DNA of 24,420 bases, taken from positions 1-24,420 of IMG/VR virus record IMGVR_UViG_3300044615_000902. One strand, 5' to 3'. This stretch comes from a virus. The first letter of the stretch is position 1; every line of letters starts with the position of its first letter. A model generated the notes under the pieces. It was not told the origin of the DNA. It worked only from the letters and a program-made list of their open reading frames with translations, and searched no databases. This document shows positions 884 through 23,356 of the stretch, piece by piece. The translations under genes were made by a program, and so were the position numbers.

Positions 884-3067
884 ATGGCTAAAGATTTCGA
901 CATAGGACAGGTCCAGCCCCTCCAAGGTGGCTCCTATCAAGGCCAGGATGCCCACATAACGAATCCTGGTCAATCAAACAGCATGCAGCAGCTAGTGAAT
1001 GCTGTTGGGACATTCTCTGAGGGTGTCCGACGTTATGCTGTCAATGAACAGATAGAGATTAGCGAGGAACAGACTCAGCAAGTCTTAGCGAATCTCCATG
1101 CTGAGGAAGCCAAGGGGCAAGCCACAGCAGCAGACATGGTACGTAATGGTCAGCTAGCACTTGGGGCTAACCCATATGCTGCCAAAGCTGCCCGTCGCTT
1201 GTTCATGCAGGGGATTGCCAAGAGGGCTGGGGATGAGATAGCCCAAGAGTATGAGTCCAGCCCTGTCCGTAACCTTGGGCCGGATGAAGTAGCACAGTGG
1301 ACCCGGGAGCAGTTCGCTAAGCGGACTAAGGCCATGGGCTTCACTGACCCCCACGACGCTGAGTTCCTAGACGGCTTCCTGCCTATCCAGGAACGGGCTG
1401 TGGAGGGTCTGGTTGGCTACCATACCAAGGTTGCAGCCCAGAGAACAGAGCGCGACCTGAAGGAAGGCATAGCCCAGAATGCTGGGGACGTTGCCTCAGC
1501 TAACCTCTTGCTCCCCGATGTGGCAGCCAGGGATGTAGCTGATAATACCCTCCGTGCTGCTCTTATGACGGGCATGGCTCCACGGGATGCCTATGAGAAC
1601 GTCCTAGATGGTCTTATCTCTAAGGCCATGGCAGAAGGGGACGTTGGTTACCTGGATGTCGCTGAGCAGGTTCCTACGCTCAACGATAAGAGCCAGGAAG
1701 TACCTATGGGCTCACGGATTTGGGCTCAGGAGAAGATAGCAGCAGCTAGGGCCAGCCTGGAATCCCAGAAGGCCAGGGAAGCGAAAGCAGCAGCAGATAA
1801 CCAAAAGCTTGTCCTAGAACAAAACAAGGAGGCTTCTCTAGCTGAAGCTGTGGATATCCTCCATGGTGGCAGGTCCCTACCTGAAACAGCCGAGGTCTAT
1901 GAGCAATTCAAGCGAAAGGCTGTGGAGCTAACCCGTAAGGGGCTCCTGGATCCTAAGCTAGTCCCAGAGCTAGACCGGATGCGAGAGGAAGCTGTAGCTG
2001 CCAACCTCAAGGCAAGTGAGCGTGGCGAAGTTATTGGAGATTATGGCTCAGTAGCCCACGAGGAGGCTACACAGTTCATCCTGGGTGGTCAGGTGGCTAC
2101 ACTATCCAAGGTAGCTGAGATGTACGCAGCCCCAAGCATGGCTCCATTCCGTGGTGCTGCCTTCAAGACCTGGAATGATTGGAAGAAGGCTCAGGAAGTA
2201 GAATCAGATTACAACCTGAAGGGGATGAAGCTTGGTATCCTCAATGACCCAAACATAAAGATGCTAGGTGCAGAGAAGATTGCCAGCATAGAAAGCTATT
2301 GGAATGGGTCCATTGCTGCCTTCAAGAAAGAGCGGGATAAGGCTGGGCAAGCCATAACAGTAATAGAGATGAATGAGTTTGCTAGCAACCTAGCTGACCA
2401 AGTTATAGCCCGGTACAGCAATAAGCCTGACAAGAATGGCGACAAGCTAGCACCAGCGAAAGACTATGTGGAAAGCTATGGGGATACCGTCCGTAGTGCT
2501 TTGCAGAATGCTAAGGACAAGGAAGAACAGAATCTTATCTATAATCGTGAGATAGATGCTAAGGTTCCCACGTTCACCAAGGATATCATAGACCTCCCGA
2601 AGAACCTCAAGGATCTAGGCTTTGATACCTGGGGTGATGAGGCAGCTAAGCGGTATGAGCGGCATGTAGCTGCTATAACTGGTGTAGCTGAGAATAGTGG
2701 ATCAGCAGATGCCATAGCGGCAGCTAAGGTCCTCAATGAAATGGTCCGAAATAAGATTGTGTTTGAGCGTCAACAGGCAGGAACAGACCAGGAGAGAGCC
2801 AGGATGGGCCAAGCCTCTCTAGCAGCCTATCCACGTGTGGAGGCTTTGATGCCTATGCCAGACGGAATGCCAATCAATGTTATCTCCAAGCTCGTCAAGA
2901 ATGGCGATGCCGTAATCGTCAGAGCCGATGGTAAGGTCCGTGGCTATGCACAAGGCATCTACCTGAAGAACCCAGAAGCAGGTATGCAGGCTGCCCTAGA
3001 ACTCGTACAGACTGAACTCAAGGCTACTCGTAGGCCAGACCCAAAGCCTGACACACCAAATAAGTAA
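884..3067 (+). CDS. Internal virion protein C (T7 gp15-like)
   Basis: The 727-residue protein is close in length to T7 gp15 (747) and sits in the same place in the gene order. gp15 forms a ring in the internal core and, after ejection with gp14 and gp16, builds the periplasmic channel through which DNA enters the cell. The sequence is strongly helical in character: long stretches rich in Ala, Glu, Lys and Gln, few Cys, no signal peptide and no clear transmembrane helix. No enzymatic motif is visible. The ATG follows the upstream TAA directly, with a GGGGAG site about 9 bases before it. Leucine codons include many CTA, as elsewhere in the late region. Confidence 0.85.
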   Translation: MAKDFDIGQVQPLQGGSYQGQDAHITNPGQSNSMQQLVNAVGTFSEGVRRYAVNEQIEISEEQTQQVLANLHAEEAKGQATAADMVRNGQLALGANPYAAKAARRLFMQGIAKRAGDEIAQEYESSPVRNLGPDEVAQWTREQFAKRTKAMGFTDPHDAEFLDGFLPIQERAVEGLVGYHTKVAAQRTERDLKEGIAQNAGDVASANLLLPDVAARDVADNTLRAALMTGMAPRDAYENVLDGLISKAMAEGDVGYLDVAEQVPTLNDKSQEVPMGSRIWAQEKIAAARASLESQKAREAKAAADNQKLVLEQNKEASLAEAVDILHGGRSLPETAEVYEQFKRKAVELTRKGLLDPKLVPELDRMREEAVAANLKASERGEVIGDYGSVAHEEATQFILGGQVATLSKVAEMYAAPSMAPFRGAAFKTWNDWKKAQEVESDYNLKGMKLGILNDPNIKMLGAEKIASIESYWNGSIAAFKKERDKAGQAITVIEMNEFASNLADQVIARYSNKPDKNGDKLAPAKDYVESYGDTVRSALQNAKDKEEQNLIYNREIDAKVPTFTKDIIDLPKNLKDLGFDTWGDEAAKRYERHVAAITGVAENSGSADAIAAAKVLNEMVRNKIVFERQQAGTDQERARMGQASLAAYPRVEALMPMPDGMPINVISKLVKNGDAVIVRADGKVRGYAQGIYLKNPEAGMQAALELVQTELKATRRPDPKPDTPNK

Positions 3068-6000: not shown

Positions 6001-7049
6001 GCATCCGTGAGGCTATTGTAGGAAAGATGGGTGCAGAGGCACAAGCGTCCTTCATAGGTAAGCAAGTGGTAGGCTTTGGCCTCGCTACAACTGCCTTTGG
6101 CCTCTACCAAGCTGGCTTCCTTACTGGCTCAGGTCCAACAGACCCAGAAGAACGTAAGGCGTGGTTGGCTGCTGGGAATCGTGAGTATGCTATTAATGTA
6201 GGTGGACGTTGGTGGGATTATAAGCGCATGGATCCATGGGCTACCCTCCTAGGCACCATGGCGGATACCTCAAAGGCTTGTACCAAACTTGGGAAGCCAG
6301 AGGAAGCCGTCAATATCATGTTCAAGGGAATCAAGCAAGGTGTCGTAGATAAGACCTATTTCAAAGGTATCTCAGATATCGTTAAGGCTCTCGATAACCC
6401 AGAAGTCTTTGGCGTCATGTGGGCTTCCAACGTTAGCTCAGGCATGCTCCCGTATTCAGGAGCCATGAGCCAAGCCAGCCGAGCCATAACCAGCCATAGT
6501 TACCGCATGAATGGCTTCCTAGATGCCTTCAGGGCTAAATCCATGGGCATCTGGGAGCCTGAGAAACGTTACGACCTCTATGGCAACCCCATAGATACTG
6601 GCATTGATGAGGCTGTGTCTCCTTTTGCTAGTACAGCAGATGGGGATAGCCCAGCCCTAGCAGAGCTAGCGAGCATTAAAGGAGGCATAGACATGGAGCC
6701 TCCTAAGGTTATCGGAAATGTGCAGCTAACGAAGGAACAACGGGAATTCATAGCTGAACAAACAGGCAAGGTGAAGATCGGTGGTCAGACGTTGATGGAG
6801 CGTTTGGAGAGCATTGTTGCCTCTGAGTCATATCAGAAGCTTCCAAGTAACGACCTGACTCCCGATGATTATACCAAGGTGCCACGAGCAATGGCACTCA
6901 AGCGTCCCTTTGATGCTGCCCAAGCGGCTGCCATTCGTATGGCCAAAGAGAAGTTCCCAGAGTTGAAGCAAGCAATTAACCAAGATCGACTTAATAAGGC
7001 TCTAGTTAGGGCTGGGGAGTTTGATCGTGTCATGGAGATAAGCAAGTAA
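3075..7049 (+). CDS. Internal virion protein D (T7 gp16-like) with HExxH motif
   Basis: The 1324-residue protein is almost the length of T7 gp16 (1318) and is the last of the internal core genes. gp16 is ejected and spans the inner membrane. T7 gp16 begins with a lytic transglycosylase domain, but here I see no transglycosylase signature; residues 1-100 are Pro-rich and acidic. Instead HETAH at residues 389-393, followed about 30 residues later by E423/E424 in AEERFAVGFEEY, has the form of a zinc metallopeptidase site as found in large polyvalent phage proteins. Hydrophobic stretches lie at about 109-155 and 993-1015. The region around 940-1040 (NRHPWARIIVPFVKTPSN and following) resembles domains shared by large ejected phage proteins. 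The start has an AAGGAAG site. Confidence 0.85.
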   Translation: MPTDFNPPDIPVKQPEPVPELGGDTLEIVRRGQIVAPEQPQTPETDPGLLAESATGLWLGLLNTGDAAFGWAFPREYETVPHLDESGKLRVVKTNDFAKQLPQSKTITGGLVRGVSEFAIGAASVGGAVSSVTKAGGLAMSIAKGAAADYVAFGAHEERLSNVVADLGVPIASTIAEHLKAEESDGEVAGRLKNVIEGGILGITLEAGFKLIGGVAKLRKAKQITGSDPDKAKELIAEATADLAEVKPHGMVLAPTKPIQATAKDRIIAKTLEVDPALTHSEADALADIQISLARYVNPAQEADVTLASIMDVTKVRAEDLALRQVAERIVAQDPSKSLDEAMELAKAQAAAVPPTVKPGGPRGKTTFASNGKALVELFDKADLTTHLHETAHVFRRYLRPDDKAVFESWLGVKDGKWTRAAEERFAVGFEEYMRRGEAPTEQLKGAFERIKAVVVDVYKKLRGHGKGLARLSPEVKQAYDRLLSNTEREGIFDTRVNMAAKQLSNDLGITVRPTHVRGLAEAVKKGGKIDYKLLEIPHFTRILRAAHESQGSAELAQQVFKEVNDLNPTGVQSLVDTARIAQSIGQDKEALVSTMRQFVQNNQQLNSVLAAYDWHVQMQTAEVAKLAAEVKKYGAGDLPERLSAQFLQRHSELTELVELQLYGQTIVSRSMGAYRLRGQPIDAVHKLFQDGDKQIDELFQSEGAKVSDMVGGPKSVLDLADKVLEAKGAEDAAKRMKDAGKTMHAAMNKIMEWYMNAILSGPKTHLVNMVSNTVMTVMVPLERIIGGKVLSAFGKKQGVLEAKKGVSQLMGLQMAFREALQAGKESWSSGSSFMEKATAMDVVKGTQSKFLKSYVYVAGRALQAEDSFFKVLSFRAHAYAELVEKAGKEANPEAFIKTELDKMMKDPLAYGSSANAAKTATFTHDLKPGTSFHSLSSFVNRHPWARIIVPFVKTPSNILLEFGRHVPGLPLLRKGIREAIVGKMGAEAQASFIGKQVVGFGLATTAFGLYQAGFLTGSGPTDPEERKAWLAAGNREYAINVGGRWWDYKRMDPWATLLGTMADTSKACTKLGKPEEAVNIMFKGIKQGVVDKTYFKGISDIVKALDNPEVFGVMWASNVSSGMLPYSGAMSQASRAITSHSYRMNGFLDAFRAKSMGIWEPEKRYDLYGNPIDTGIDEAVSPFASTADGDSPALAELASIKGGIDMEPPKVIGNVQLTKEQREFIAEQTGKVKIGGQTLMERLESIVASESYQKLPSNDLTPDDYTKVPRAMALKRPFDAAQAAAIRMAKEKFPELKQAINQDRLNKALVRAGEFDRVMEISK

Positions 7050-7759
7050 TGGCTTATAGTTATGATACATACTTTGGAAACGGTACAAATAAGGTTTGGT
7101 CAGTAACCTTTGGGTATATCAAGAAAGCCCATGTACAGGTGTTGGTGGATGGTGTGTCAGTAAGCTTTTCGTGGCTTACCGATACCAGCATAGAAACTAC
7201 CGTTGCTGCTCCCATGTCTGCTGAGGTTGTCATAAAAAGAGTGACACCAAAGGATCCTATGGTTTCCTACTCCAATGGAGCCATTGTAAAGGCTGCGGAT
7301 CTAAACCTTGCTAACCTCCAAGCAATCTATCTGGCTCAAGAAGCAGCAGACCAGACACGGGGAGAGCAAGGCCCTCCAGGTCCTCCTGGTTCAGGTGGAA
7401 GTGGGGGAGCATCGTCCATTACCTATCCTGCTGGTATTATACTCAGTGGCCAACGGGTAGTGTTGTATGCACCAGGAGTTGGATGGATTTATGCTGACTC
7501 ATCCATAGTAGCGCATGGGCAAGCACAGGTGGCTGTAACCAAAACAGCAGCAAACTTGGGTGTTGATTGTGAAGCTGTTACAAGCGGGGTCATGGATGAA
7601 CCTTCGTGGTCCTGGCCCGCTCCTTGTGTCCTGTTTCTAGGGACCAGTGGGCAACTAACCATTACCCCACCAACGTCAGGATTTGTCAGAGAGATTGCTA
7701 GAGCCGTGTCGGCTACTCGCATAGTCATTGAACCAGAACAAGCCATCAACCTACTATAG
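7049..7759 (+). CDS. Tail fibre adaptor, T7 gp17 N-terminal type, collagen-like linker
   Basis: Residues 1-105 match the T7 gp17 N-terminal domain in pattern: a start around MAYSYDTYFGNGTNKVWSVTF, then AEVVIKR and the NGAIVKAADLNLANLQAIYLAQEA segment. This domain attaches fibres to the tail. A short collagen-like linker (GPPGPPGSGG, about residues 110-120) leads into a C-terminal beta-rich domain of about 110 residues. At 236 residues it is far shorter than T7 gp17 (553), so it is more likely an adaptor or short fibre than the full receptor binder. The ATG overlaps the upstream stop by one base with a GGAG site in front. A paralogous N-terminal domain occurs in the gene at 10586-11839. Confidence 0.85.
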   Translation: MAYSYDTYFGNGTNKVWSVTFGYIKKAHVQVLVDGVSVSFSWLTDTSIETTVAAPMSAEVVIKRVTPKDPMVSYSNGAIVKAADLNLANLQAIYLAQEAADQTRGEQGPPGPPGSGGSGGASSITYPAGIILSGQRVVLYAPGVGWIYADSSIVAHGQAQVAVTKTAANLGVDCEAVTSGVMDEPSWSWPAPCVLFLGTSGQLTITPPTSGFVREIARAVSATRIVIEPEQAINLL

Positions 7760-10299: not shown

Positions 10300-10583
10300 T
10301 GCTGCGCTGCAACGTGCACAACCTCGTCACCGGCCAGCGGTACGAATTCACCGCCGCCGACCAAGCCGAAATCGACGCCCGCCTGGAGCGCAAGGCGGGC
10401 GTCTACGGCATTAACCCTGAAGTATCTATTACTAATATAGACGCTGAGTTGGAAACTGAGGCACGAGGTAAAGCCAACATACAGGAGGCCAAAGAATACT
10501 TCGCAACTCTTGATTGGTCCCTTATAGAAGACACAGAAGCACGCAAGGCAATCCGGCATTTGTGGCGTCTGATAAAACAATAA
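10299..10583 (+). CDS. Small protein downstream of receptor-binding protein; possible fibre chaperone
   Basis: The 94-residue protein starts at an ATG that overlaps the upstream TAA by one base, so translation is probably coupled. I do not recognise the family with confidence. The N-terminus (MLRCNVHNLVTGQRYEFTAADQAE) is GC-rich at DNA level, while from about residue 38 (GINPEVSITNIDAELE) codon use reverts to the AT-richer phage style, so the gene itself is a recombination junction. The C-terminus (EAKEYFATLDWSLIEDTEARKAIRHLWRL) looks helical. Its size and place directly after a receptor-binding protein suggest a fibre assembly chaperone, but that is inference only. Confidence 0.6.
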   Translation: MLRCNVHNLVTGQRYEFTAADQAEIDARLERKAGVYGINPEVSITNIDAELETEARGKANIQEAKEYFATLDWSLIEDTEARKAIRHLWRLIKQ

Positions 10584-10585
10584 AC

Positions 10586-11839
10586 ATGGCATTCCTTAGT
10601 AAAATAACCTATCCTGGCGACGGCATAGTGTCCTCGTTCAGTGTTCCATTTAATTACATCATAAAGGAGCATGTGAAAGTCTATGTAGCTGGTGTGTTGA
10701 ATACCACGTTTACATGGACTACACCTAGCACCATCCAATTGGCATCGGTTCCTGGCATCGGGATAGAAGTCCTCATCAAGCGGGAAACACCACAAACCCC
10801 TCTGGTGGCTTGGCAAGACGGTGCTACCCTCCGTGCTGCTGACCTGAATAAGCAAGCCCTGCAAACCATCTATATCTGCCAGGAGACTATAGACAACTCA
10901 GCAGCAGCCGCAGAAGTAGGAGAGACTGTTACCCTCGCTGCTGCTCAGGCTGCACAGTCCGTCCTGGATGCAGAAGCGGCCGTAACAGCAGCAGAGATAG
11001 CTAAGACGGCTGCTCAGGCTGCCCAAGCTGCAACCGAGTCCCTACCAAAGGATGCTTCGTGGATCACCACAGGCGTCTTTGACCCATCTCGGGTTCCCTT
11101 GGCTGGCTTTGGTGGAGCTATTGTGGACCAATCAACAGGGTTCACAGCGGCAGCCAACCGAGTCTATAACCTCTCTGGTAGCTCCTTCACCATTACACTT
11201 CCTGTGGCTCCTGCCGCTGGAACCATGGTTGGTTTCATTGTTGGTCGCTATGCCTCTGCTTCTGGTGAGTATCAACTTGATGCAGGCGCAGGGGCGTACA
11301 TTGCTGGTCGCTCACGGTATCTGAAACTCATCCATACCAACTGTGCTGTCCTGCGATGGAACGGTAGCAATGAATGGGTTCCAGTGCATCTTAGTCTGGA
11401 CACTCGTTGGCTAGACGCTGGTGCTGTGAGCATCACTGGTGCTGTCACTAACCCAGCAAAAGGGACTGTTCTCCAAGACAAAGTTTATTGGCGTCGAGTA
11501 GGTGACAGTATAGAACAGCAGATTAGTTTCTATCAATCTGTAGCAGGCACAGCCGGTAGTGGTGAATATAGTTTCCGCTGTGCAAATAACTATGACATAG
11601 ACACAAGCAGGTGTGCAAGTGCTGGTCCTGCTGGCTCTGGATGCATTGGTTCCGCCATGGTAAGCAACTTTACAACCAGCACAGCCGTTGGTGTTGTTCA
11701 TGCTGGAGGGGATCCAGGAGTCCGCGTATCCATTGTCAATGGTGTCAGCGGAGTGAATCTTAGTAGTAGCCAAGCCTACAACCTGGGTGTCCCTGTGGCG
11801 TTTGGCATCCACTTTACTGCGCCGATATCGGGGTGGTAA
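10586..11839 (+). CDS. Second tail fibre protein with T7 gp17-type N-terminus
   Basis: I take the ATG at 10586 as the start because the protein then begins MAFLSKITYPGDGIVSSFSV, in line with T7 gp17 N-terminal domains, although the frame is open further upstream. The product has 417 residues. Residues 1-105 parallel the adaptor encoded at 7049-7759 (FNYIIKEHVKVYVAGV, EVLIKRETP, DGATLRAADLNKQALQTIYI). Residues about 108-155 are Ala/Glu-rich and probably form a trimeric coiled coil. A beta domain follows, then from about residue 273 a module homologous to one in the upstream receptor-binding protein (NPAKGT, DKVYWRRVGDS, AGSGEY), ending in APISGW. Composition is that of the rest of the phage. 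Confidence 0.85.
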   Translation: MAFLSKITYPGDGIVSSFSVPFNYIIKEHVKVYVAGVLNTTFTWTTPSTIQLASVPGIGIEVLIKRETPQTPLVAWQDGATLRAADLNKQALQTIYICQETIDNSAAAAEVGETVTLAAAQAAQSVLDAEAAVTAAEIAKTAAQAAQAATESLPKDASWITTGVFDPSRVPLAGFGGAIVDQSTGFTAAANRVYNLSGSSFTITLPVAPAAGTMVGFIVGRYASASGEYQLDAGAGAYIAGRSRYLKLIHTNCAVLRWNGSNEWVPVHLSLDTRWLDAGAVSITGAVTNPAKGTVLQDKVYWRRVGDSIEQQISFYQSVAGTAGSGEYSFRCANNYDIDTSRCASAGPAGSGCIGSAMVSNFTTSTAVGVVHAGGDPGVRVSIVNGVSGVNLSSSQAYNLGVPVAFGIHFTAPISGW

Positions 11840-12093: not shown

Positions 12094-12329
12094 TGGCAGA
12101 TAAAGATTTGCTGGCTACACTCCATGATTCCATAGCTGATCTATTTATTAAGAAGCTAGAGGGCAAGGGGCGTAATGACCTGACAGCAGCAGAACTAGGC
12201 GTCATCATTAAATTCCTCAAGGATAATGATATCACAGCCGCCCCTGTTCCTGCTGCCAAGACAACTAAGATAGCTCAGATTCTACCGTTCCCGAGCGGTG
12301 AAGATGAACTAGCACTTGCGGAAGGCTAA
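12093..12329 (+). CDS. terS: Terminase small subunit (T7 gp18-like DNA maturase A)
   Basis: The 78-residue protein is close in size to T7 gp18 (89) and immediately precedes the large subunit. The N-terminal half is helical (DLLATLHDSIADLFIKKLEG), followed by an LTAAELGVIIKFLKDNDI helix. The C-terminus carries the ILPFPSGEDEL segment characteristic of this family. The small subunit recognises concatemeric DNA and recruits the large subunit to the packaging site. The ATG overlaps the upstream stop by one base and has an AAAGGA site. Its 3' end overlaps the large-subunit gene by 14 bases. Confidence 0.85.
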   Translation: MADKDLLATLHDSIADLFIKKLEGKGRNDLTAAELGVIIKFLKDNDITAAPVPAAKTTKIAQILPFPSGEDELALAEG

Positions 12330-14055
12330 GGACAAGGCTCCGGTAGTCCAAGGTGATATCCAGTTACAAGACTTTAGGAATTTCCTATATGTAACCTGGA
12401 AGCATCTTGGGCTACCTGAGCCGACTCCTGTACAATATGACATAGCTCACTACCTCCAAACCGGAGGGAAGCGTATTATCGTTGAAGGGTTCCGTGGCGT
12501 CGGGAAGTCATGGATCACAGCAGCATTTGTATGTCACCAGTTGTACCTAGATCCGCAAAAGAAGATTCTGGTTATCTCAGCCTCAAAGGCATTGGCAGAT
12601 AACTTCAGTACATTCGTTCTACAACTCATCCATGGAATGCCAGAATTAGAGCATCTGATTCCAGAGGACAATCAGCGTAATAGTAAGATTCAATTTGATG
12701 TGAAGCCAGCTACAGCCGCCAAGGATCCCTCTGTGAGGTCTGTAGGTATCACAGGTCAGATTACGGGCTCCCGTGCTGACCTCATTGTAGCTGATGACGT
12801 AGAGGTTCCTGGGAACGCTATGACCCAGATGCTACGGGATAAGCTCTCAGAGGCAGTCAAAGAGTTTGATGCTATTCTGACGCCTAAAGAGGACTCACGT
12901 ATCGTCTTCCTAGGTACTCCTCAGTGTGAGCAAAGCCTCTACAATGCTCTCCCAGGTCGAGGCTTCCAGGTTCGTGTATGGCCAGCTAGGTATCCCAATG
13001 TAACCAAGGTGGCAGGCTATAACGGAACCCTGGCACCATTCATTGCGAATGCTTTGGCGAAGTCTGAGGCCCTAGCGGGAAAGCCTACGGATCCCAAGCG
13101 GTTCTCTGAAGAGGACCTATTGGAACGCGAGGCTAGCTATGGTCGCTCTGGGTTCTCTCTCCAATTCATGTTGGATACCAGACTCTCAGACCTGGACCGC
13201 TATCCCCTACGGGTCAATGATCTTATCGTCATGGACCTAGATGAGGAAGAAGGACCTGAAAAGGTCACATGGTCTGGAACCTACGAGTTTGAATACAAGG
13301 ATCTACCCAGCCTAGGCTTCAATGGAGATAGATTCCATAGACCACAAACACTATCCCAACGCTCTGCCCCATACACGGGTGGAGTCATGTTCATAGACCC
13401 TGCTGGTAGAGGCAAGGATGAGGTAGGCTATGCAGTTGTTAAGATGCTCCATGGTCAATTATTCGTGTTGGCCTGTGGGGGTATTCAAGGAGGCTACCAG
13501 GATAGTAACTTGGAATTTCTAAGTAACATCGCAAAGGTTACACTAGTGAACCATGTTATCATCGAGAAGAACTTTGGTGATGGCATGTTCTCCAAGCTGC
13601 TCACTCCGTTCCTTGCCAAGGTGCATCCTTGTCGGATTGAAGAGGTCCATAGCTCCATCCAGAAGGAAAAGAGGATCATAGATACCCTTGAGCCTGTGAT
13701 GAATCGTCACAAGCTGATCTTCAATCGGAAGGTAATCCAGGATGACTATGAGGGTGTCCAGAAGGATCTAACAGAGCGAGCCCCGCAACGATCCTTGATC
13801 TACCAGCTAACCAGGATCACCAGGGAGAAGGGTGCTCTCCTCCTAGATGACAGACTGGATGCCCTAGCTGGTGCTGTAGCCTACTGGGTTGAATCCATGG
13901 CCAGGGACACTGATCTAGCTGTTCAGGAGAGAAGTGCCGAACTCCTAGACCAGGAACTCAATGGCTTCCTAGAACATGCTACCGGCATAGAAGGCTTTGG
14001 GGTCAGCTTAGGAGGGGACAGGGATGGCTGGGGAGGAACATGGTCTATACGCTAG
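12316..14055 (+). CDS. terL: Terminase large subunit (T7 gp19-like DNA maturase B)
   Basis: The 579-residue protein matches T7 gp19 (586) in length and order. It has a Walker A motif, FRGVGKS at residues 59-65 (K64, S65), a Walker B motif, LIVADD at 156-161, and a C-terminal RNase H-like nuclease domain beginning MFIDPAGRGKDE with D361 as the first metal ligand. The enzyme translocates DNA into the prohead and cuts concatemers at genome ends. The only start upstream of the conserved region is a TTG at 12316 inside the small-subunit gene, with no strong ribosome binding site, so coupled translation is likely. It is the last late gene before the 1.3-kb repeat region. Confidence 0.93.
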   Translation: MRKAKDKAPVVQGDIQLQDFRNFLYVTWKHLGLPEPTPVQYDIAHYLQTGGKRIIVEGFRGVGKSWITAAFVCHQLYLDPQKKILVISASKALADNFSTFVLQLIHGMPELEHLIPEDNQRNSKIQFDVKPATAAKDPSVRSVGITGQITGSRADLIVADDVEVPGNAMTQMLRDKLSEAVKEFDAILTPKEDSRIVFLGTPQCEQSLYNALPGRGFQVRVWPARYPNVTKVAGYNGTLAPFIANALAKSEALAGKPTDPKRFSEEDLLEREASYGRSGFSLQFMLDTRLSDLDRYPLRVNDLIVMDLDEEEGPEKVTWSGTYEFEYKDLPSLGFNGDRFHRPQTLSQRSAPYTGGVMFIDPAGRGKDEVGYAVVKMLHGQLFVLACGGIQGGYQDSNLEFLSNIAKVTLVNHVIIEKNFGDGMFSKLLTPFLAKVHPCRIEEVHSSIQKEKRIIDTLEPVMNRHKLIFNRKVIQDDYEGVQKDLTERAPQRSLIYQLTRITREKGALLLDDRLDALAGAVAYWVESMARDTDLAVQERSAELLDQELNGFLEHATGIEGFGVSLGGDRDGWGGTWSIR

Positions 14056-14069
14056 TTTCTCCTTTGACC

Positions 14070-14232
14070 CTACTCAGGATACCCCTAAGCCAGAATAATG
14101 GCTAGGATTGACTCCTAGGCCATCTGCTGAGCCTCTAGAATCAACGCTAAGGCCATTTGCTGTTCATTCCTGCCATTATTATTCCTTAGGGCTACTCAGA
14201 TTACCCTTAGAATAATAATGGCTAGGATTGAC
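14070..14232 (+). repeat. Pair of ~42-bp imperfect direct repeats with inverted copy
   Basis: The segments 14070-14112 and 14192-14232 both begin ctactcag and end with the identical 19-mer aataatggctaggattgac; the middle differs by a few bases. Between them, 14172-14184 (gccattattattc) is an exact inverted copy of 14210-14222, giving a possible 13-bp stem. A further 13-bp direct repeat with one mismatch (aggccatctgctg / aggccatttgctg) lies at 14117-14129 and 14150-14162. They begin just 15 bases after the terminase stop, as expected for recognition sequences at the right genome end. Confidence 0.8.
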
Positions 14233-14424
14233 AGGAAACAGGATCTAGGACAGTCTGGTTGTGGTAATGACTAGGATGGGTTCTTAGAGACTCCAACAAA
14301 TCATAAGTCACACTTTGAAAAATCTATCAAAATTAGAGTTCTTGCACAAGTTGTAACTGATTGTTGTTATTGCTGGTTATAAAACAAAAAAAGTCGATCT
14401 TCCCAACTGTAGGGGTGAAGGATA

Positions 14425-14577
14425 TACTTAGTTTATACTTAGATAACTTAGAGATTAACGTAGAGTATCTAGGTTGATACTTGGTGAATACTAGGTAGCC
14501 TCCTTGAATGCAGTTCATTGTGAGTACCTGGATAATGCTTGGTTAGCCTAGATCGCAGTTCATTGCGGGTTACTAGG
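14425..14577 (+). repeat. Iterated 7-bp TACYTRG-like motifs phased at ~11 bp
   Basis: Copies or near copies of TACTTAG/TACTTGG/TACTAGG/TACCTGG begin at 14425, 14436, 14445, 14466, 14478, 14489, 14525, 14536 and 14571. Most steps are 9-12 bases or about two to three times that, so many copies face the same side of the helix. A larger imperfect unit of about 45 bp is overlaid, shown by gcagttcattg at 14510-14520 and 14555-14565. Short iterated heptamers flank the terminal repeat in T7, so a terminase or processing role is plausible; replication initiator binding is the alternative. Confidence 0.6.
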
Positions 14578-14728
14578 AATGAACCAAGCTGCTACCAGGG
14601 TGCTACAATGCATCCACTTGGGTAGGGAGCAATAGAAATAACCTATTCCTGTAGCTTTGTAGCTCTCTGGTGGGACTCGGTTTATACGGTGATAGCTCTT
14701 TGAAAAGCCGGTGTGGAAAGCCAGAAGT

Positions 14729-14799
14729 GTAAACACAGATGTAACACAGATGCTAACCCTGATGTAATCTATGGAAATACTGTGTTGGACTGTGTTTAC
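14729..14799. repeat. Symmetric array: two AACACAG direct and two CTGTGTT inverted copies
   Basis: AACACAG occurs at 14732-14738 and 14743-14749; its reverse complement CTGTGTT occurs at 14780-14786 and 14790-14796. The outer pair extends to a perfect 10-bp inverted repeat (gtaaacacag 14729-14738, ctgtgtttac 14790-14799). Spacing within each half is 10-11 bases, one helical turn. Two-fold symmetric, helically phased sites of this kind suit a dimeric DNA-binding protein such as a repressor or terminase small subunit. GATG-containing partial repeats also recur at 14738, 14749 and 14761. Confidence 0.65.
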
Positions 14800-14826
14800 G
14801 CTTTGGTGAGGTAAAAATGGTGGAAA

Positions 14827-14865
14827 AATCTGAGCGGTCTACCCATAGCCTGCCCCGCTGAGATT
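14827..14865. repeat. 11-bp interrupted inverted repeat
   Basis: aatctgagcgg at 14827-14837 pairs with ccgctgagatt at 14855-14865 except for a single central G-G mismatch, with a 17-base spacer. It could be a protein-binding site or an RNA hairpin at the leader of the early transcript. No T-tract follows, so it is not a typical terminator. Confidence 0.5.
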
Positions 14866-15064
14866 ACCCCCATGGCCTACCCCCTTGGAATTTCCAGGGC
14901 CAATCCATGCTTATCAATAGCGCACCCAGGTAACTCCTGGCGTAACAGTCACGCTAAGTCATTGGTATTACTAGGATCACAACGGATAGTGTATCCTGTG
15001 CATGGCCTGGATGTGGTCCTAGTTGATAGTTGATTGATCGTTAGCATACATTCGACCTTGTGAA

Positions 15065-15136
15065 GTACTAATAAGTATATATCATGCACCCAATAATAGG
15101 GTGTGTGCTATATGCTTTATTTTTTTTTATTAGTAC
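15065..15136 (+). terminator. Long hairpin with T-tract, candidate terminator
   Basis: gtactaataa (15065-15074) and ttattagtac (15127-15136) form a perfect 10-bp outer inverted repeat. Within it CACCC (15087-15091) can pair with GGGTG (15099-15103), and imperfect pairing of TATAT/ATATA extends this. A run of nine T residues (15120-15128) precedes the outer right arm. It could stop late transcription from crossing the genome-end junction, or form a cruciform. The T-run is 16 bases from the inner stem, so it is not a canonical Rho-independent terminator. Confidence 0.4.
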
Positions 15137-15158
15137 TCATAATACCCAAACAAAGCGC

Positions 15159-15191
15159 AACCATGCTCCAACCATGCTCCAACCATGCTCC
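15159..15191 (+). repeat. Three perfect tandem 11-bp repeats
   Basis: The unit aaccatgctcc occurs three times without change, followed by a partial fourth (aacc). The 11-bp period again equals one helical turn, as for iterons. An inverted relative (ggttgagcatgg) lies at about 15314-15325. Copy number is too low and units too short for a CRISPR array. Confidence 0.85.
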
Positions 15192-15402
15192 AACCTAGCG
15201 TCCACATAGTCAACACCAAGCTGATGCATTGCACCACATACGCCAAACACATAGCAACTAAGGGGAGTTTTACAAGACTCACAATGCCAAACTAAGTTTT
15301 CTAGCTTAACCATGGTTGAGCATGGGGTAACCTGGATTGTGCCAGGAATCGACTAGGAATGGCCTTGCTGTGAATTATCATTTATTGAAGGCTATTGATA
15401 GC

Positions 15403-17271: not shown

Positions 17272-17952
17272 ATGGACTCATCCATTAACCTTCCTGAAAT
17301 CCTTAACCTACACTCGCTCTGGCTTGGTAACAAACCAGGGGGCAGCCGTGCGAACCTCAGCGGTGCGGACCTCATCGGTGCGGACCTCAGCCGTGCGAAC
17401 CTCAGCGGTGCGGACCTCAGCCGTGCGGGCCTCAGCGGTGCGGACCTCAGCCGTGCGAACCTCAGCGGTGCGAACCTCATCGGTGCGGGCCTCAGCGGTG
17501 CGGACCTCAGCGGTGCGGACCTCAGCGGTGCGGACCTCATCGGTGCGGACCTCAGCCGTGCGAACCTCAGCGGTGCGGACCTCAGCGGTGCGGACCTCAT
17601 CGGTGCGGACCTCAGCGGTGCGAAGGGCGCAGCCCTGGTTATCGCCAGAACCCGTATACTCCCGCAAGGCTCCCTCATTGGCTGGAAGAAATGCAAGTAT
17701 AACGTCATTATTAAACTTCGCATCCCCGAGGAAGCCAAGCGTTCCCATGCCTTTGGCCGCAAGTGCCGGGCTGAATACGTGGAGGTCCTGGAAGTCTTTG
17801 GCTCAGATGAAGGGATAAGCCAGCACGATGGAGTGACAAAGTATATCAAAGGTGCAACCGTGCACCCCGACAAGTGGAGCGATGATTGGCAGGAGGAATG
17901 CGATAGTGGAATTCACTTCTTCATCACCCGTGAGGAAGCGGAGGCATACTGA
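17272..17952 (+). CDS. Pentapeptide-repeat protein with DUF5758-like C-terminal domain
   Basis: The 226-residue protein has 18 consecutive pentapeptides (A-D/N/G-L-S/I-G/R) at residues 27-116, predicting a right-handed quadrilateral beta-helix of about four and a half coils. The C-terminal 105 residues ([54 protein letters not shown]) resemble the domain that often follows pentapeptide repeats in phage proteins (DUF5758, from memory). Some pentapeptide proteins mimic DNA and bind gyrase, and several T7-family early proteins are DNA mimics, but no target can be assigned here. An AAAGGA site precedes the ATG. The 15-bp DNA repeats produce long false frames on both strands. Confidence 0.85.
17350..17619 (+). 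repeat. 18 tandem 15-bp units encoding pentapeptides
   Basis: The unit is close to gcggacctcagcggt, repeated 18 times in frame. Units differ mainly at a few positions (gac/aac, agc/atc, ggt/cgt), so many are identical at DNA level. Such low synonymous divergence points to recent expansion by slippage or unequal recombination, and predicts copy-number differences among relatives. Confidence 0.95.
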
Positions 17953-18510: not shown

Positions 18511-18910
18511 CCTAGCCAAGCGTGCATCCCAGATGCTCCCTGAGGTAATCCGCAAGCATGATCCAGGCCATGCATTGTTTGCCTTCATGGTGCAACGCAA
18601 TGCAGTCCTGGCAGCATCCCACAACCTCACAGGGCGCATCAGTTGCCTCCCCCGTACAACTAGCCCGTGCTCTAGGTTTGGCTATAAGCGTGACTCTGTT
18701 CATGCCGAGGTTGCAGCAGTCAAGAAAGGCATGGGCAAAGTGGATCGGCGGAAGCCCTGGCATATCGTGGTCATGCGTTTAGCTCCGGGTGGACAACTCA
18801 GGCTAGCCAAGCCCTGTCCTATCTGCCAAGCGTATTTGAAGGCTCAGGGATGCTCTCATGCCATCTATAGCGATTCAGAGGGAGACATGGTGCAGCTATG
18901 CCTATCCTAA
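18497..18910 (+). CDS. Zinc-dependent deaminase-like protein (HAE...PCxxC)
   Basis: From the ATG at 18497 (137 residues) the protein has HAEVAAVKKG with H69 and E71, and PCPIC with C107 and C110. This is the zinc ligand and proton-shuttle signature of the cytidine/deoxycytidylate deaminase superfamily. The 36-residue spacing between HAE and PCxxC and the downstream beta strand (HAIYSDSEGD) fit the fold. The substrate is not clear: a free nucleotide (dCMP or cytidine) is the common case for phages, but nucleic acid or another base is possible. An AAAGGA site precedes the chosen start, and the upstream in-frame start at 18473 lacks one. Confidence 0.75.
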   Translation: MRPSSLAKRASQMLPEVIRKHDPGHALFAFMVQRNAVLAASHNLTGRISCLPRTTSPCSRFGYKRDSVHAEVAAVKKGMGKVDRRKPWHIVVMRLAPGGQLRLAKPCPICQAYLKAQGCSHAIYSDSEGDMVQLCLS

Positions 18911-18912
18911 TC

Positions 18913-19038
18913 ATGCCCTCAGAGTTAAAACAGCCTTCCCCTCCGAAATTCCTAGAGCCAGGAAAGCTTGCAAAGCTTGTGAAACAAAGGGAGTACATGA
19001 GGGAGTACAGACAACGAAAGCGAAACCTTGCTATCTAG
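18913..19038 (+). CDS. 41-residue basic peptide coupled to the deaminase-like gene
   Basis: The ATG lies 2 bases after the deaminase-like stop, suggesting reinitiation. The product ends in a strongly basic, aromatic stretch (KQREYMREYRQRKRNLA) like the YMREYR-type helices at the ends of small phage DNA-binding proteins. The frame is short and has no Shine-Dalgarno sequence of its own, so coding status is uncertain. The start of the frame contains one copy of the dispersed agccttcccc repeat. Confidence 0.4.
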   Translation: MPSELKQPSPPKFLEPGKLAKLVKQREYMREYRQRKRNLAI

Positions 19039-19061
19039 CTTTCTACTGTCATAGTAGAAGC

Positions 19062-19442
19062 ATGAACCTAAGCCCTGATGACCTGGATAGATTCCGACGT
19101 ATGGATGCAGCCCTAGCACGATTCCAAAAACTCAGCCCAACCATTGGGGTTGGTCAGATGAGGGCCGTGCTGTGGGCTGCTCTGTCGGATAATAAAGGCT
19201 ATCAAGGGGAATTTGTAAAGCGTCTGAACCTCAGCGAAACAGCCGCCAGTGGTAACCTGGATTTCTGGACCCGCTATTGCAAGAATAAAGTAAAGCCTCC
19301 AGAGCTATTAGTCAAAGAGCAGGCATTGGAAGATAGAACACAGAATAGAATATTTATGACGCAACTGGGCGAACGATTCATTGCAGAAATCAAAACCATC
19401 CTAGATCCAACCCAGCCTTCCCCCGCAGATAAGGACAATTAA
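19062..19442 (+). CDS. MarR-like winged-helix regulator (putative)
   Basis: I start at the ATG at 19062 (126 residues), since the upstream open frame overlaps two other genes. A helix (DDLDRFRRMDAALARFQKLS) is followed by a winged-helix pattern: VGQMRAVLWAALSDNKGYQG, a recognition-helix-like FVKRLNLSETAASGNLDFW, and a wing with DRTQNRIFMTQLGERFIAEI, which parallels the DRR...LT..G signature of MarR proteins. The segment between helix and wing is atypical. It ends just before the integrase gene, so it may be the repressor or an integration regulator. The AGAAG site is weak. Confidence 0.6.
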   Translation: MNLSPDDLDRFRRMDAALARFQKLSPTIGVGQMRAVLWAALSDNKGYQGEFVKRLNLSETAASGNLDFWTRYCKNKVKPPELLVKEQALEDRTQNRIFMTQLGERFIAEIKTILDPTQPSPADKDN

Positions 19443-19444
19443 CC

Positions 19445-20479
19445 ATGGCTATCAGAAAGCGTGGTGATTCGTGGCAAGTCGATGTGACCGTAAAGGGAAC
19501 GCGTAGGTCCTGCACCTGTGCGACACCTGAGGAGGCACAAAAGGTTGAGGCTCAGCTACGGGCTGAGTTGTTCAATGGTGCTCCTGTAGAGCAAGGCAAG
19601 GGCTGGACTCTGAAGGATACCTATGATCGGTGTATGCTCCAGGTGTGGCGTGGTAAGGCTCATGCAAACAACGTGGAAAAGATATATGCGAAACTAGAGA
19701 AACACTTTGGAGCAGACACCCCCATGGCTGCAATCTCTGCGCTGGATGTGGACGCATATTTTGCATCCATGATGTCCCGTGGTCTGGCTAATGGGACTAT
19801 CAACAGGCATCGGGCTGTCCTTACCCGTATGTTTAGCTTTGCCATAGAGCGCAAGGAAGTCTCCCAAGTGACCAGCCAGCCACACATGGAGCACTTCAAG
19901 GAGTCTATTGGCCGCATGAAGTATTTCACTATTGAGGAGGAGAAAGCCATTACCTCTACCATGCGTCACTTTGGTTACACGGAGCAGGCAGACTTTGTTG
20001 AATTTCTGCTAGACACTGGTGCACGTGTGCAATCCGATGGATTCGCTTTGACATGGGACAAGGTAAACTTTGATACCAATGTCCTGGTGTTCCATGGTCG
20101 AAAGTGTGGCAAGACCACAGGTATCCCCATGACTAAGCGGGTTGCTGCCATGCTGAAGGCAAGGAAGGCAGCTAGGCCCGACTCCACCCACGTTTGGCCT
20201 TATCAGCATTGGTGGCTGAGGAGCCCTTGGGATCGGGTTAAAGAACACCTGAAGCAAGGGCATGATCCTGAGTGGATCCCACACACATGCAGGCACACCA
20301 CGGCTTCACGCTTGGTACAGGCTGGGGTGCCATTGATGGCTGTTAAGGAGTTTCTGGGGCATAGCTCCATCACGGTCACCATGCGCTACAGTCACCTAGC
20401 CCCTACTGCCTTGCTTCCCTGTGTGGCAGCCCTAGAGCCCACAACAGACACCAAACCACCGTCTCAGGCGGCCGGGTAA
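19445..20479 (+). CDS. int: Tyrosine recombinase / phage integrase
   Basis: The 344-residue protein has the full catalytic set: R194 in TGARVQSDGFALTW, K223 in the beta-hairpin, H280 and R283 in PHTCRHTTASRL, H306 in FLGHSS, and the nucleophile Y315 in MRYSHL. Residues 1-50 form the arm-binding domain (RKRGDSWQVDVTVKGTRRSC, a three-stranded sheet). Residues about 55-150 form the SAM-like core-binding domain (HANNVEKIYAKLEKHFG, GTINRHRAVLTRMF). It would integrate the phage at a host attachment site. AAGGA precedes the ATG at 9 bases, and the start lies 2 bases after the upstream stop. The tRNA-like sequence begins 31 bases downstream. Confidence 0.95.
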   Translation: MAIRKRGDSWQVDVTVKGTRRSCTCATPEEAQKVEAQLRAELFNGAPVEQGKGWTLKDTYDRCMLQVWRGKAHANNVEKIYAKLEKHFGADTPMAAISALDVDAYFASMMSRGLANGTINRHRAVLTRMFSFAIERKEVSQVTSQPHMEHFKESIGRMKYFTIEEEKAITSTMRHFGYTEQADFVEFLLDTGARVQSDGFALTWDKVNFDTNVLVFHGRKCGKTTGIPMTKRVAAMLKARKAARPDSTHVWPYQHWWLRSPWDRVKEHLKQGHDPEWIPHTCRHTTASRLVQAGVPLMAVKEFLGHSSITVTMRYSHLAPTALLPCVAALEPTTDTKPPSQAAG

Positions 20480-20510
20480 CGAGTGTTGCGTAACGGTCAC
20501 AGCCTTCCCC

Positions 20511-20593
20511 GCGAGGGTGGCGAAACAGCAAACGCGCAGGTCTTAGAAGCCTGTACCTTCAACGGTTTACGGGTGCAAGTCCCGTCCCTCGCA
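20511..20593 (+). tRNA. tRNA-Leu (anticodon UAG), class II, no encoded CCA
   Basis: The acceptor stem gcgaggg/ccctcgc pairs perfectly, with discriminator A at 20593 and no CCA after it. The D stem is GCG/CGC (20520-20522, 20533-20535). The anticodon stem (20537-20541 with 20549-20553) closes the loop CTTAGAA, giving anticodon UAG, which reads CUA. A long variable arm with an ACC/GGT stem (20555-20566) and a perfect T stem acggg/cccgt follow. Departures are A at position 18, G at position 55 and A at 37. The leucine codon CTA is very common in this phage. It may be functional, or a relic forming attP. Confidence 0.8.
20549..20593 (+). other. Candidate attP core in the 3' half of the tRNA-like gene
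   Basis: Tyrosine integrases commonly recombine within tRNA genes, and phage attP then carries a copy of the tRNA 3' half so that the host gene is restored. This tRNA-like gene lies 31 bases downstream of an intact integrase, which makes its 3' half the best core candidate. Unusually, the whole tRNA is present, not just the 3' half. The exact crossover cannot be fixed without a host sequence. Confidence 0.4.
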
Positions 20594-20727
20594 TTCTTCC
20601 CTTAGGACTTAGAAACCTTCGTGACTATTAGCCTTAGCCTTAATCTCAGCTATCTATTTATCCTAAATCGAGTTGTGGCAATTGTTCAGCCACCGGGTTT
20701 AGGCTCAACCTAACCAACAGACTCGTT

Positions 20728-20763
20728 TGTTGCGGAGCCATTCACCGCAACACCAGGGTTTTT
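20728..20763 (+). terminator. Hairpin with T-tract between tRNA and RNA polymerase gene
   Basis: tgttgcgg (20728-20735) pairs perfectly over 8 bases with ccgcaaca (20745-20752) around a 9-base loop, and TTTTT follows at 20759-20763 after a 6-base gap. It may terminate transcripts from the integrase/tRNA side and so limit polymerase expression. The gap weakens this reading; an operator or integrase arm site is possible. The rest of 20594-20848 holds a second imperfect stem (ggtttagg/cctaacc, 20696-20715) and no gene. Confidence 0.45.
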
Positions 20764-20775
20764 CGTTCAAGTCTA

Positions 20776-20788
20776 AACCTAGGCTGAA
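20776..20788 (+). promoter_or_regulatory. Motif aacctaggctgaa upstream of RNA polymerase
   Basis: This 13-mer recurs with one mismatch (aacctaagctgaa) at 23361-23373, just after the polymerase gene, and more loosely at 15781-15793 upstream of the Cys-rich gene. The positions, each before a gene, would suit promoters of the phage polymerase or regulator sites. It does not look like the T7 consensus, and function is inferred only from recurrence. Confidence 0.25.
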
Positions 20789-20848
20789 CTTAAAGCCCAA
20801 CGTCCCAACCATCGAATAGCCACCTAGGCACCACCGGAGCCTTCCCCG

Positions 20849-23356
20849 ATGACTACTCAAGACGTTCCCTCCACTCAACTAGAGGACATCCCTCCATGCC
20901 CCAAAGGCATCCCCCAAGAGGCATGGATAGCTCAGTACCACAAGGAGATGAAATCCCTGGATGACGGGGTGGAACGCTTTGAAGCTAGCTGCAAGAAGGC
21001 CAAGGAGTACGGGGCTGAGACTCGGACCATTCCTGGCCAAGCCCTCTTGTCCCGCATGGTGCAGCCTGTAGCGGATGCACTGGACGCCTGGATTAAGACT
21101 GCCAACAGTGGTAAGCCAGGACCCCGCCATGAGGTCCTTCCTCTCTTCCAGGCGCTACCAAGCACAACCGTTGCTAGCTACCTAGCATGCAAAGCCGTGG
21201 TCGATGAGTTGACCATGGAGACTCGCACAGCGAACCGCTTGGCGTTTGTGATTGCGGAGCGTTTGGAGACAGAGATTCGGGTGAGGACCATGATGGAGGC
21301 CCCGCACGCCCGTAGGGCTACCAAAGCCATCATGCAGAAAACCAAGAGGCAGGCTCAAGGGTACAAGACTACCCGTGCCATCCTTATTCGGGCTGCAAAC
21401 AAGGGTCTAGCGGTGAAGCTGCCCAAGTTTAACATGCGGGCTCGGGCTCTCCTGGGTGGCTGCCTTATCCAGCTTATCATGGATACAACCGGAGTGATTG
21501 AGTTTAGAGAGGACTTCGTTAACGGTTCAACCTCCACGAAGATGGTTGTTCCCTCTGCTGAAACCAAGCGTTGGCTTGCGGGACGCATGGAAGCCCTCAA
21601 AGAATCCAGCCCCTATTATACGCCTCTGGTATGTTCCCCGCGTCCCTGGGATAACCCCTATGAGGGTGGATACTGGCATCTGCCTGTGCCTCTTGTTCGT
21701 CGGGCCAAGCCTGCCTATCTGGAAGAGTTAGCAAACTCAGTGAACATCCAGAATGTTTACGAGGCTGTTAATGCTCTCCAGGCAACAGCATGGGAAGTCA
21801 ATCCGGTAGTCCAATATGTCCTGGCTCAACTCTGGGAATCCCAGGACTACCCGGCGTCATTCATGGTAAAGGCTGAGGATGAGCACTTGCCCCACTGTGA
21901 TAAAGCTACCATGTCTAACGAGGAGTTTAAGAAGGCTGTCATGCGTCTTCAGCAGCTACGGGCCAAGCACAAGGAGGACGCCAGCAAGCGTAAGGCTCTC
22001 ATGCAGACCATACAGGCTGCTGGGGAATACCTGGGCTCTCCGCTATGGTTCGCATACAATCTGGATTTCAGGGGGCGTATCTATCCCATTGCTACCCATC
22101 TAACCCCACAGGGTGACGATGTACAGCGTGGGTTGCTCTGCTTTGCCAAGTCTAAACTCGTAGAAACCCAAGAGCAAGTGGACTGCCTAGCTATCCATGG
22201 TGCCAACTGTTGGGGCAATAAGGTGGACAAGCAGGGATTCAAGGCTCGCATAGCCTGGATCACGGAGCATGAGGACCTTATCATTGCTTCTGCTGCTGAT
22301 CCCCTGAGCAATCGGGAATGGATGAAAGCTGATGAGCCGTTCCAATTCCTAGCATTCTGCTTGGAGTGGACAACGTTTCTAGGGGAAGGCTTGGGCGTAT
22401 TCCGCACCAAACTCCCGGTAGCTGTCGATGGTACATGCTCTGGCCTTCAACATTTCTCCGCTCTACTGCGTGATCCAATCGGAGCCTCAGCTACCAACCT
22501 GACTCCAAGTGAGATACCAAGCGACATCTATGCTGTAGTCGCACATAAGACCATGGAGAAGGTAAAGGCAATCCTGGCAGTAGAGCCAGAGAACATCATG
22601 GCTAAAGGCTGGGTTGATTTCGGAATTGACCGTGGCTGCGCTAAGCGACCCGTCATGACTCTTCCCTATGGCGCTACTGCCTACTCAGCCCGTGAGTATG
22701 TACAGGATTGGCTAGACGAAAAGATGCTTGGAGGAAAGGCCAGCACCTTTGGAGAACATGGCACCTTCAAAGCTAGCCTTTGGTTGACTCCACACCTATG
22801 GGCAGCCATTGGAGAGACGGTAGTGGCAGCACGGCAGGCCATGGATTGGCTCCAGGATGTGGCCAGGATTGTAGCCAAGTCTGGTAATCCGGTATGGTGG
22901 ACAACGCCAACAGGGTTCCAGGTGTTCCAAGGTTATCCCAATACCAAGCAACGCCGGGTAGACACAGCCCTACAAGGGAGCAAGGTCTTTGTATCCTACC
23001 GTGAGGAAACCAAAGGGTATGATTCTGGTAAGGCTGCATCTGGCCTTGCTCCAAACTTCGTACACAGCATGGATGCCTCAGCCTTAACACTGACCGTCAA
23101 TGGTTGCATGGCTGAAGGCATTGACGCCTTTGGAATGATCCATGACTCCTTTGCTACACACTGCACTGATATGCCAAAGATGAACAGGATTCTTCGGGAT
23201 GTCTTTGTGGACATGTACACCAAACATGATGTGCTGGCTGAGTTTGAATCAGCAGTACGCGAAGTGCTGCCTAAGGACGCTAAGCTACCTCCACGTCCAA
23301 CCATGGGCAGTCTGGATATTAACCAAGTCAGGGATAGTCTGTACTTTTTCTCATGA
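20849..23356 (+). CDS. T7-type single-subunit DNA-directed RNA polymerase
   Basis: The 835-residue protein is slightly shorter than T7 gp1 (883). It has the conserved blocks in order: NLDFRGRIYPIATHLTPQGD; motif A with DGTCSGLQHFSALLRDP (catalytic D527); motif B KRPVMTLPYGATAYS with K599 and Y607; and motif C MIHDSFATH (catalytic D766). The region between about 690 and 745 (WWTTPTGFQVFQGY to SGLAPNFVHSMD) includes the specificity loop that reads the promoter, and it differs from T7, so promoters should differ too. It would transcribe middle and late phage genes. The ATG has GGAG at 11 bases. A hairpin and the tRNA separate it from the integrase. Confidence 0.97.
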   Translation: MTTQDVPSTQLEDIPPCPKGIPQEAWIAQYHKEMKSLDDGVERFEASCKKAKEYGAETRTIPGQALLSRMVQPVADALDAWIKTANSGKPGPRHEVLPLFQALPSTTVASYLACKAVVDELTMETRTANRLAFVIAERLETEIRVRTMMEAPHARRATKAIMQKTKRQAQGYKTTRAILIRAANKGLAVKLPKFNMRARALLGGCLIQLIMDTTGVIEFREDFVNGSTSTKMVVPSAETKRWLAGRMEALKESSPYYTPLVCSPRPWDNPYEGGYWHLPVPLVRRAKPAYLEELANSVNIQNVYEAVNALQATAWEVNPVVQYVLAQLWESQDYPASFMVKAEDEHLPHCDKATMSNEEFKKAVMRLQQLRAKHKEDASKRKALMQTIQAAGEYLGSPLWFAYNLDFRGRIYPIATHLTPQGDDVQRGLLCFAKSKLVETQEQVDCLAIHGANCWGNKVDKQGFKARIAWITEHEDLIIASAADPLSNREWMKADEPFQFLAFCLEWTTFLGEGLGVFRTKLPVAVDGTCSGLQHFSALLRDPIGASATNLTPSEIPSDIYAVVAHKTMEKVKAILAVEPENIMAKGWVDFGIDRGCAKRPVMTLPYGATAYSAREYVQDWLDEKMLGGKASTFGEHGTFKASLWLTPHLWAAIGETVVAARQAMDWLQDVARIVAKSGNPVWWTTPTGFQVFQGYPNTKQRRVDTALQGSKVFVSYREETKGYDSGKAASGLAPNFVHSMDASALTLTVNGCMAEGIDAFGMIHDSFATHCTDMPKMNRILRDVFVDMYTKHDVLAEFESAVREVLPKDAKLPPRPTMGSLDINQVRDSLYFFS

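Follow-up and report, generated by a model that had tools for sequence, protein, structure and literature searches.

A tRNA-Leu(UAG) gene and a separate copy of its anticodon loop point to probable tRNA-dependent lysogeny in a T7-like phage

tRNA-dependent lysogeny was defined in the actinobacteriophages Fionnbharth, LeBron and Gaia (PMC10865867). Like the two integrated relatives described below, these viruses encode a tyrosine integrase, use an attB located in a host tRNA gene and do not rebuild the host tRNA, their core being 8-17 bp long, and Gaia uses a tRNA-Leu whose gene lies downstream of int (PMC10865867). The actinophage system was established by deletion and plasmid tests in Actinobacteria hosts (PMC10865867), whereas the T7-like phages considered here have other hosts, are interpreted from sequence and, unlike the actinophages, have as putative core a copy of the anticodon loop placed next to the tRNA. 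The Fonsibacter prophage uv-Fonsiphage-EPL and the pelagiphages HTVC011P and HTVC025P are, like the two integrated relatives below, T7-like prophages in a host tRNA-Leu(UAG) gene, and the tRNA-Leu of uv-Fonsiphage-EPL is said to replace the lost host gene (PMC6811365); the part of that source considered here presents single cases in SAR11 hosts, and gives neither a family-wide rule nor a tracking of the anticodon by the core.

LUZ100 and Mesorhizobium phage Lo5R7ANS share with the window (the whole stretch of DNA analysed, 24,420 bases, IMG/VR virus fragment IMGVR_UViG_3300044615_000902) a T7-like character, an integrase, a complete tRNA-Leu nearby and a loop copy downstream of int, but their tRNAs are canonical and carry an encoded CCA, whereas the window tRNA has neither property. 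The mechanism was seen by the authors of PMC12429752 in prophages similar to Lo5R7ANS, while the LUZ100 tRNA was interpreted as an excision remnant (PMC10134795). The cyanophages P-SSP7 and S-TIP37 are also T7-like phages with tRNA-Leu integration and an attP downstream of int (PMC8776855). In these cyanophages the attP matches the first half of the tRNA gene over 39 bp (PMC8776855), a design that recurs in 11 of the loci collected here, without a complete tRNA-Leu.

The gene content of the window is T7-like and includes an RNA polymerase, a gp2.5-like SSB, internal virion proteins, a T7-type tail fibre and a terminase (Table 1); a single-subunit phage RNA polymerase combined with a T7-like gene order places it, at the level of gene content, in the Autographiviridae. 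The polymerase is 36% identical to polymerases from T7-like phages with an integrase, and returned zero relatives when used as query against viral contigs; a BLASTn search of the region against phages gave nothing beyond a 76-nt polymerase match. The integrase, the enzyme type on which tRNA-dependent lysogeny relies, is phage-encoded and intact, with the invariant R194, K220, H280-x-x-R283, H306 and Y315 all kept. The MarR-like regulator is probably co-transcribed with it, taking LUZ100 as a model; the order MarR-int is present in LUZ100, HTVC200P and CRP-113.

Table 1. Coordinates of the window features and the basis of each assignment.
Feature	Position	Strand	Basis
Large terminase subunit	12316..14055	+	PHROG 38, E 5.6e-111; query for relatives
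MarR-like regulator	18858..19442	+	PHROG 9665 transcriptional regulator, E 7.6e-08
Tyrosine integrase	19445..20479	+	Pfam PF00589, E 1.2e-22; PHROG 1; alignment, in which the catalytic residues do not vary
Candidate integrase arm-type site GTTGCGTAAC	20485..20494	+	Inference; motif position
Complete tRNA-Leu(UAG) gene, without encoded CCA	20511..20593	+	ARAGORN and Rfam
Proposed attP core, an isolated mimic of the anticodon arm, AGGACTTAGAAACCT	20604..20618	+	Repeat; position and loop identity as in 36 other phages
Direct repeats TAGGCTCAACCTAA / TAGGCTGAACTTAA	20700-20713, 20780-20793	+	Repeat search; function inferred
T7-like single-subunit RNA polymerase	20849..23356	+	PHROG 414, E 7.2e-230

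Some further features of the window were recorded. The N-terminal domain of a T7-type tail fibre starts two distinct genes (7049-7756 and 10556-11836), and a pentapeptide-repeat protein gene lies among the early genes at 17272-17952, similar proteins occurring at comparable positions in two relatives (L060 and L070). Between the terminase and the first early gene, a stretch of about 1.28 kb (14056-15336), with a GC content down to 35%, has no ORF of at least 100 aa; this is the expected place of T7-like genome ends, so that a terminal-repeat or circular junction may be contained in the record. An Rfam match to MIR7696 at 12336-12422 was dismissed, its score being far under the cut-off of that family.

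The preliminary description had placed a complete tRNA-Leu(UAG) gene 31 nt after an intact integrase, and this anatomy was confirmed. Rfam RF00005 (full model, 53.8 bits, E 3.5e-09) and ARAGORN agreed on the exact ends of the gene, which follows the integrase ORF after a gap of that length and has the polymerase further downstream. The encoded RNA shows a full cloverleaf, a long variable arm, U33, A73 and the anticodon loop CTTAGAA (20542-20548), and manual alignment to host genes indicated that A14 and A15-U48 are kept as well. In the same alignment, the conserved elbow pairs G18-U55 and G19-C56 are only partly present, as the window tRNA has A18 and G55 and keeps 19-56. The D-loop sequence is AAACAGCAAA, against AA..GG.A in relatives, and the T-loop opens with TGC, not TTC. 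Each of these two traits, the absent G18G19 motif and the TGC opening, is unique to the window tRNA among 47 phage tRNA-Leu next to integrases, 46 of which keep the GG motif in the D-loop. The RNA folds better than shuffled sequences (z -2.55), and its minimum-energy fold differs from the cloverleaf. Since the tRNA lacks G18, has G55 for U55 and has no CCA, its function is uncertain and this odd molecule may be impaired. An exact search with a 20-mer of the anticodon arm of about 85,000 genomes gave 39 matches, mostly in Acidobacteria, and all 39 fell within tRNA-Leu(UAG) genes; A37 and the loop are therefore natural, and the arm is genuine tRNA-Leu(UAG) sequence.

When the intergenic region was searched for repeats, it emerged that the segment 20538-20552 (AGGTCTTAGAAGCCT) recurs just downstream of the tRNA as the proposed attP core. 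The copy contains the whole 7-nt anticodon loop CTTAGAA at 20608-20614, 15 nt past the tRNA. A loop copy would arise by chance with a probability of 0.031 in the 255-nt gap and of 0.0034 at a distance of 8-30 nt. The 15-nt repeat, which has two mismatches, is by itself modest, indeed weak, evidence for a core. The intergenic region holds no separate tRNA 5' or 3' half of the kind by which other phages restore the host gene.

Relatives were gathered through the terminase (47 contigs), an integrase profile (80 contigs) and isolate phages, and integrase, polymerase and tRNAs were mapped in each; as these were chosen by similarity to the window integrase, the terminase and known isolates, the frequencies given below describe this collection and not T7-like phages at large. 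An exact copy of the phage's own 7-nt anticodon loop was found nearby in 48 of the 54 loci with a tRNA-Leu close to the integrase. After dropping near-duplicates and requiring both a complete tRNA-Leu and a downstream polymerase, 40 loci were left, and in 37 of them a plus-strand copy of the loop lay in the interval from integrase to polymerase, against 1.75 expected from Markov shuffles of the same sequences; three had no copy. When the tRNA lies between integrase and polymerase, the copy usually begins 11-15 nt beyond its 3' end. In LUZ100, HTVC200P and three further loci (L172, L178 and L180), the tRNA precedes the integrase and is on the opposite strand, yet the copy again follows the integrase, so it is no by-product of tRNA position.

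The copy also tracks the anticodon (UAA, UAG and CAA). CTTAAAA is copied in 27 of 29 UAA phages and in none of the seven phages whose loop is TTTAGGT, and TTTAGGT is copied in all seven of the latter and in 0/29 UAA phages. The stem flanks of the copy differ from the phage tRNA stem in each of the 47 loci compared, so that plain duplication of the phage tRNA gene does not account for the copy. An equivalent layout with another amino acid was observed in one T7-like phage, in which a tRNA-Ser(GCU) follows the integrase (L173:2827-2913) and the loop copy TTGCTAA lies at 3023.

The 11 loci of the cyanophage design carry, right after the integrase, a tRNA-Leu 5' half that ends at the anticodon loop and serves as attP. 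None of them has a complete tRNA-Leu, and none of the 40 loci with a complete tRNA-Leu has a 5' half (Fisher p 5e-05), these sites having been called by a custom pattern that may have missed some among the 22 loci with neither design; phage ProddE has a tRNA 3' half rather than a 5' half. The two designs are thus alternatives: phages restoring the host gene carry no tRNA, and those carrying a tRNA do not restore it.

Two integrated relatives revealed where the crossover takes place. In a bacterial genome found through its T7-like polymerase (G1083), a host tRNA-Leu(UAG) gene is split into a 5' half at C7:119,965 and a 3' half at C7:162,662, with the prophage between them. The split falls in the anticodon loop, and the junctions share a 13-bp core, CTGGATTTAGGTT. 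ARAGORN detected no tRNA at the left or right junction, and joining the flanks gave back a normal tRNA-Leu(UAG). Of the 57 tRNAs found in this genome, the long-arm set comprises Ser, Leu CAA, UAA, CAG (three), GAG and one UAG, and the sole intact tRNA-Leu(UAG) found is the prophage copy beside the integrase, although a second UAG gene could be missed in this multi-contig assembly. A second provirus (G1361, L070/L205) splits the host tRNA-Leu(UAG) likewise, with a 12-13 bp core, no tRNA at the junctions and no rebuilding. Both prophages carry a complete phage tRNA of the same isotype as attB, intact and outside the crossover, which takes place at the site equivalent to the proposed core of the window. 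These phage tRNAs share 67/85 and 71/87 identical positions with the respective host genes, the differences being spread throughout.

Three further proviruses (L109, L112 and L176) are represented by the right junction only, at which a complete phage tRNA is followed by the loop copy, and this runs directly into the 3' half of a foreign tRNA-Leu. No split tRNA-Leu was seen beside the T7-like polymerases of other genomes (L104, L105 and L191-L195). A separate case, initially considered as a host junction, was rejected, as it proved to be a 1.28-kb insert that interrupts a T7-like phage precisely at the attP core and is flanked by two GATTTAGGT copies (L085:18983-20275, IMGVR_UViG_3300046665_000193). 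The insert encodes a tRNA-Leu(UAG) of its own, contains an ORF in which a serine-protease-like GNSGG motif occurs, lacks an integrase and is possibly a small element borrowing the phage integrase.

As for integrase binding, the candidate arm-type motif GTTGCGTAAC is also present in one relative (L057) at the equivalent place ahead of its tRNA, and related motifs occur in the window (GTTGCG, 20729-20734; CGCAAC, 20746-20751). The direct repeats may represent right arm-type sites or the polymerase promoter region. In five other loci (L070, L072, L073, L075 and L100), repeated GGTGACAA(A)-like motifs were observed by the tRNA and core, upstream of the tRNA, and these are possible arm-type sites; the surroundings of the window core have no such motifs and present the GTTGCG motifs instead.

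The preliminary description had suggested a possible dual role for the tRNA, as codon support and as attachment site. Were the tRNA gene itself the attP, recombination inside it would exchange halves with a host tRNA-Leu, and both resulting chimeric tRNA genes would be complete. tRNA genes are common targets of integrases, and the exact occurrence of the anticodon arm in 39 bacterial genes agrees with such a view, but the phage tRNA stayed whole outside the crossover in both integrated relatives, the D-loop and T-loop of the window tRNA are unlike those of every host tRNA seen, and its acceptor stem would pair poorly with tRNA halves such as those of Granulicella. We consider this explanation very unlikely: the relatives cross over at a separate short anticodon-loop copy just downstream, and the window tRNA-Leu is probably not the attachment site. 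The idea that a full tRNA gene is brought along at integration, by contrast, was borne out. The match to the tRNA 3' half predicted for a bacterial host did not materialise: an exact search for the last 25 nt in viral contigs gave none, and among about 690 genomes of Acidobacteriota and Planctomycetota the best match to the tRNA was 84% over the first 73 nt, with no close full-length match. A host tRNA with the left half of the core (GGA left arm) was sought in 247 Acidobacteriota and 193 Myxococcota genomes, and none was found. Acidobacteria were therefore not retained as the host; the anticodon arm is merely suggestive, its 20-mer also occurring in Myxococcales, Planctomycetes, Verrucomicrobia and others, and the negative searches for a full-length match and for a GGA-left-arm tRNA weaken the assignment further.

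The tRNA might otherwise act in lytic growth, supporting CTA decoding or replacing host tRNAs cut by anticodon nucleases, its proximity to the integrase being incidental. CTA is indeed used freely in the window, as had been claimed, making up 24% of leucine codons in annotated genes (141/576), 31-36% in several structural genes and 22% in integrase plus polymerase, and tRNA-cutting defences can be countered by phage tRNAs (literature cited in PMC10865867). However, in seven other UAG-tRNA phages CTA accounts for only 0-4% of leucines in the integrase and polymerase genes, so codon support is not the general reason for the tRNA, and a lytic role leaves three things unexplained: the loop copy that matches the tRNA, the lack of complete tRNAs in half-tRNA attP loci, and the split host genes. 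A lytic explanation is thus unlikely, codon support being possible as an extra role of the window tRNA because CTA use in this phage far exceeds that of those seven. The suggestion made for LUZ100 and pelagiphages, that the tRNA is left over from imprecise prophage excision (PMC10134795), fits the frequency of tRNA genes as integration sites and the partly eroded appearance of the window tRNA. A leftover, however, should resemble the host gene and decay, whereas the two prophage tRNAs differ from their host genes throughout, nearly all phage tRNAs keep the D-loop GG motif and the phage tRNAs track the core; this origin seems extremely improbable.

In our judgement the window phage quite probably uses tRNA-dependent lysogeny, the link of the tRNA with integration being a part of the preliminary description that stands. 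Its integrase would recombine the attP core with the anticodon loop of a host tRNA-Leu(UAG) gene. The core would be too short to rebuild that gene, which would be split and lost, and the complete tRNA-Leu(UAG), carried within the integrase-to-attP cassette, would substitute for it and allow the lysogen to survive. This reading draws on the anatomy of the locus, the identity of the two loops, the family-wide pattern and the split, unrebuilt host gene of the two integrated relatives; from the sequence we infer that the window phage behaves likewise in its own host and that its tRNA works despite its unusual features. The mechanism is already known, and what is added here is its rule across T7-like temperate phages and the covariation of loop and anticodon, neither of which was found stated in the related literature, although this is no proof of absence.

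A wider interpretation, whose three parts taken jointly we judge evenly balanced between right and wrong, regards the tRNA and its anticodon-loop attP as a cassette of matched parts, which changes from one isoacceptor to another (UAA, UAG, CAA, perhaps Ser-GCU) and alternates with the tRNA-free half-tRNA attP. The stems of the phage tRNA would be held unlike the core so that the phage spares its own copy, and the replacement tRNA of the window would be starting to drift from the universal elbow pairs.

With tRNA-dependent lysogeny, the presence of exactly one leucine tRNA in so many temperate T7-like phages gains an explanation that can be tested; in LUZ100 and pelagiphages that gene has been taken for a leftover. 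For uncultured phages, the attachment site in the bacterium would become predictable from sequence alone, as the anticodon loop of the tRNA carried by the phage, and the loss of a single tRNA should abolish lysogen formation in such phages.
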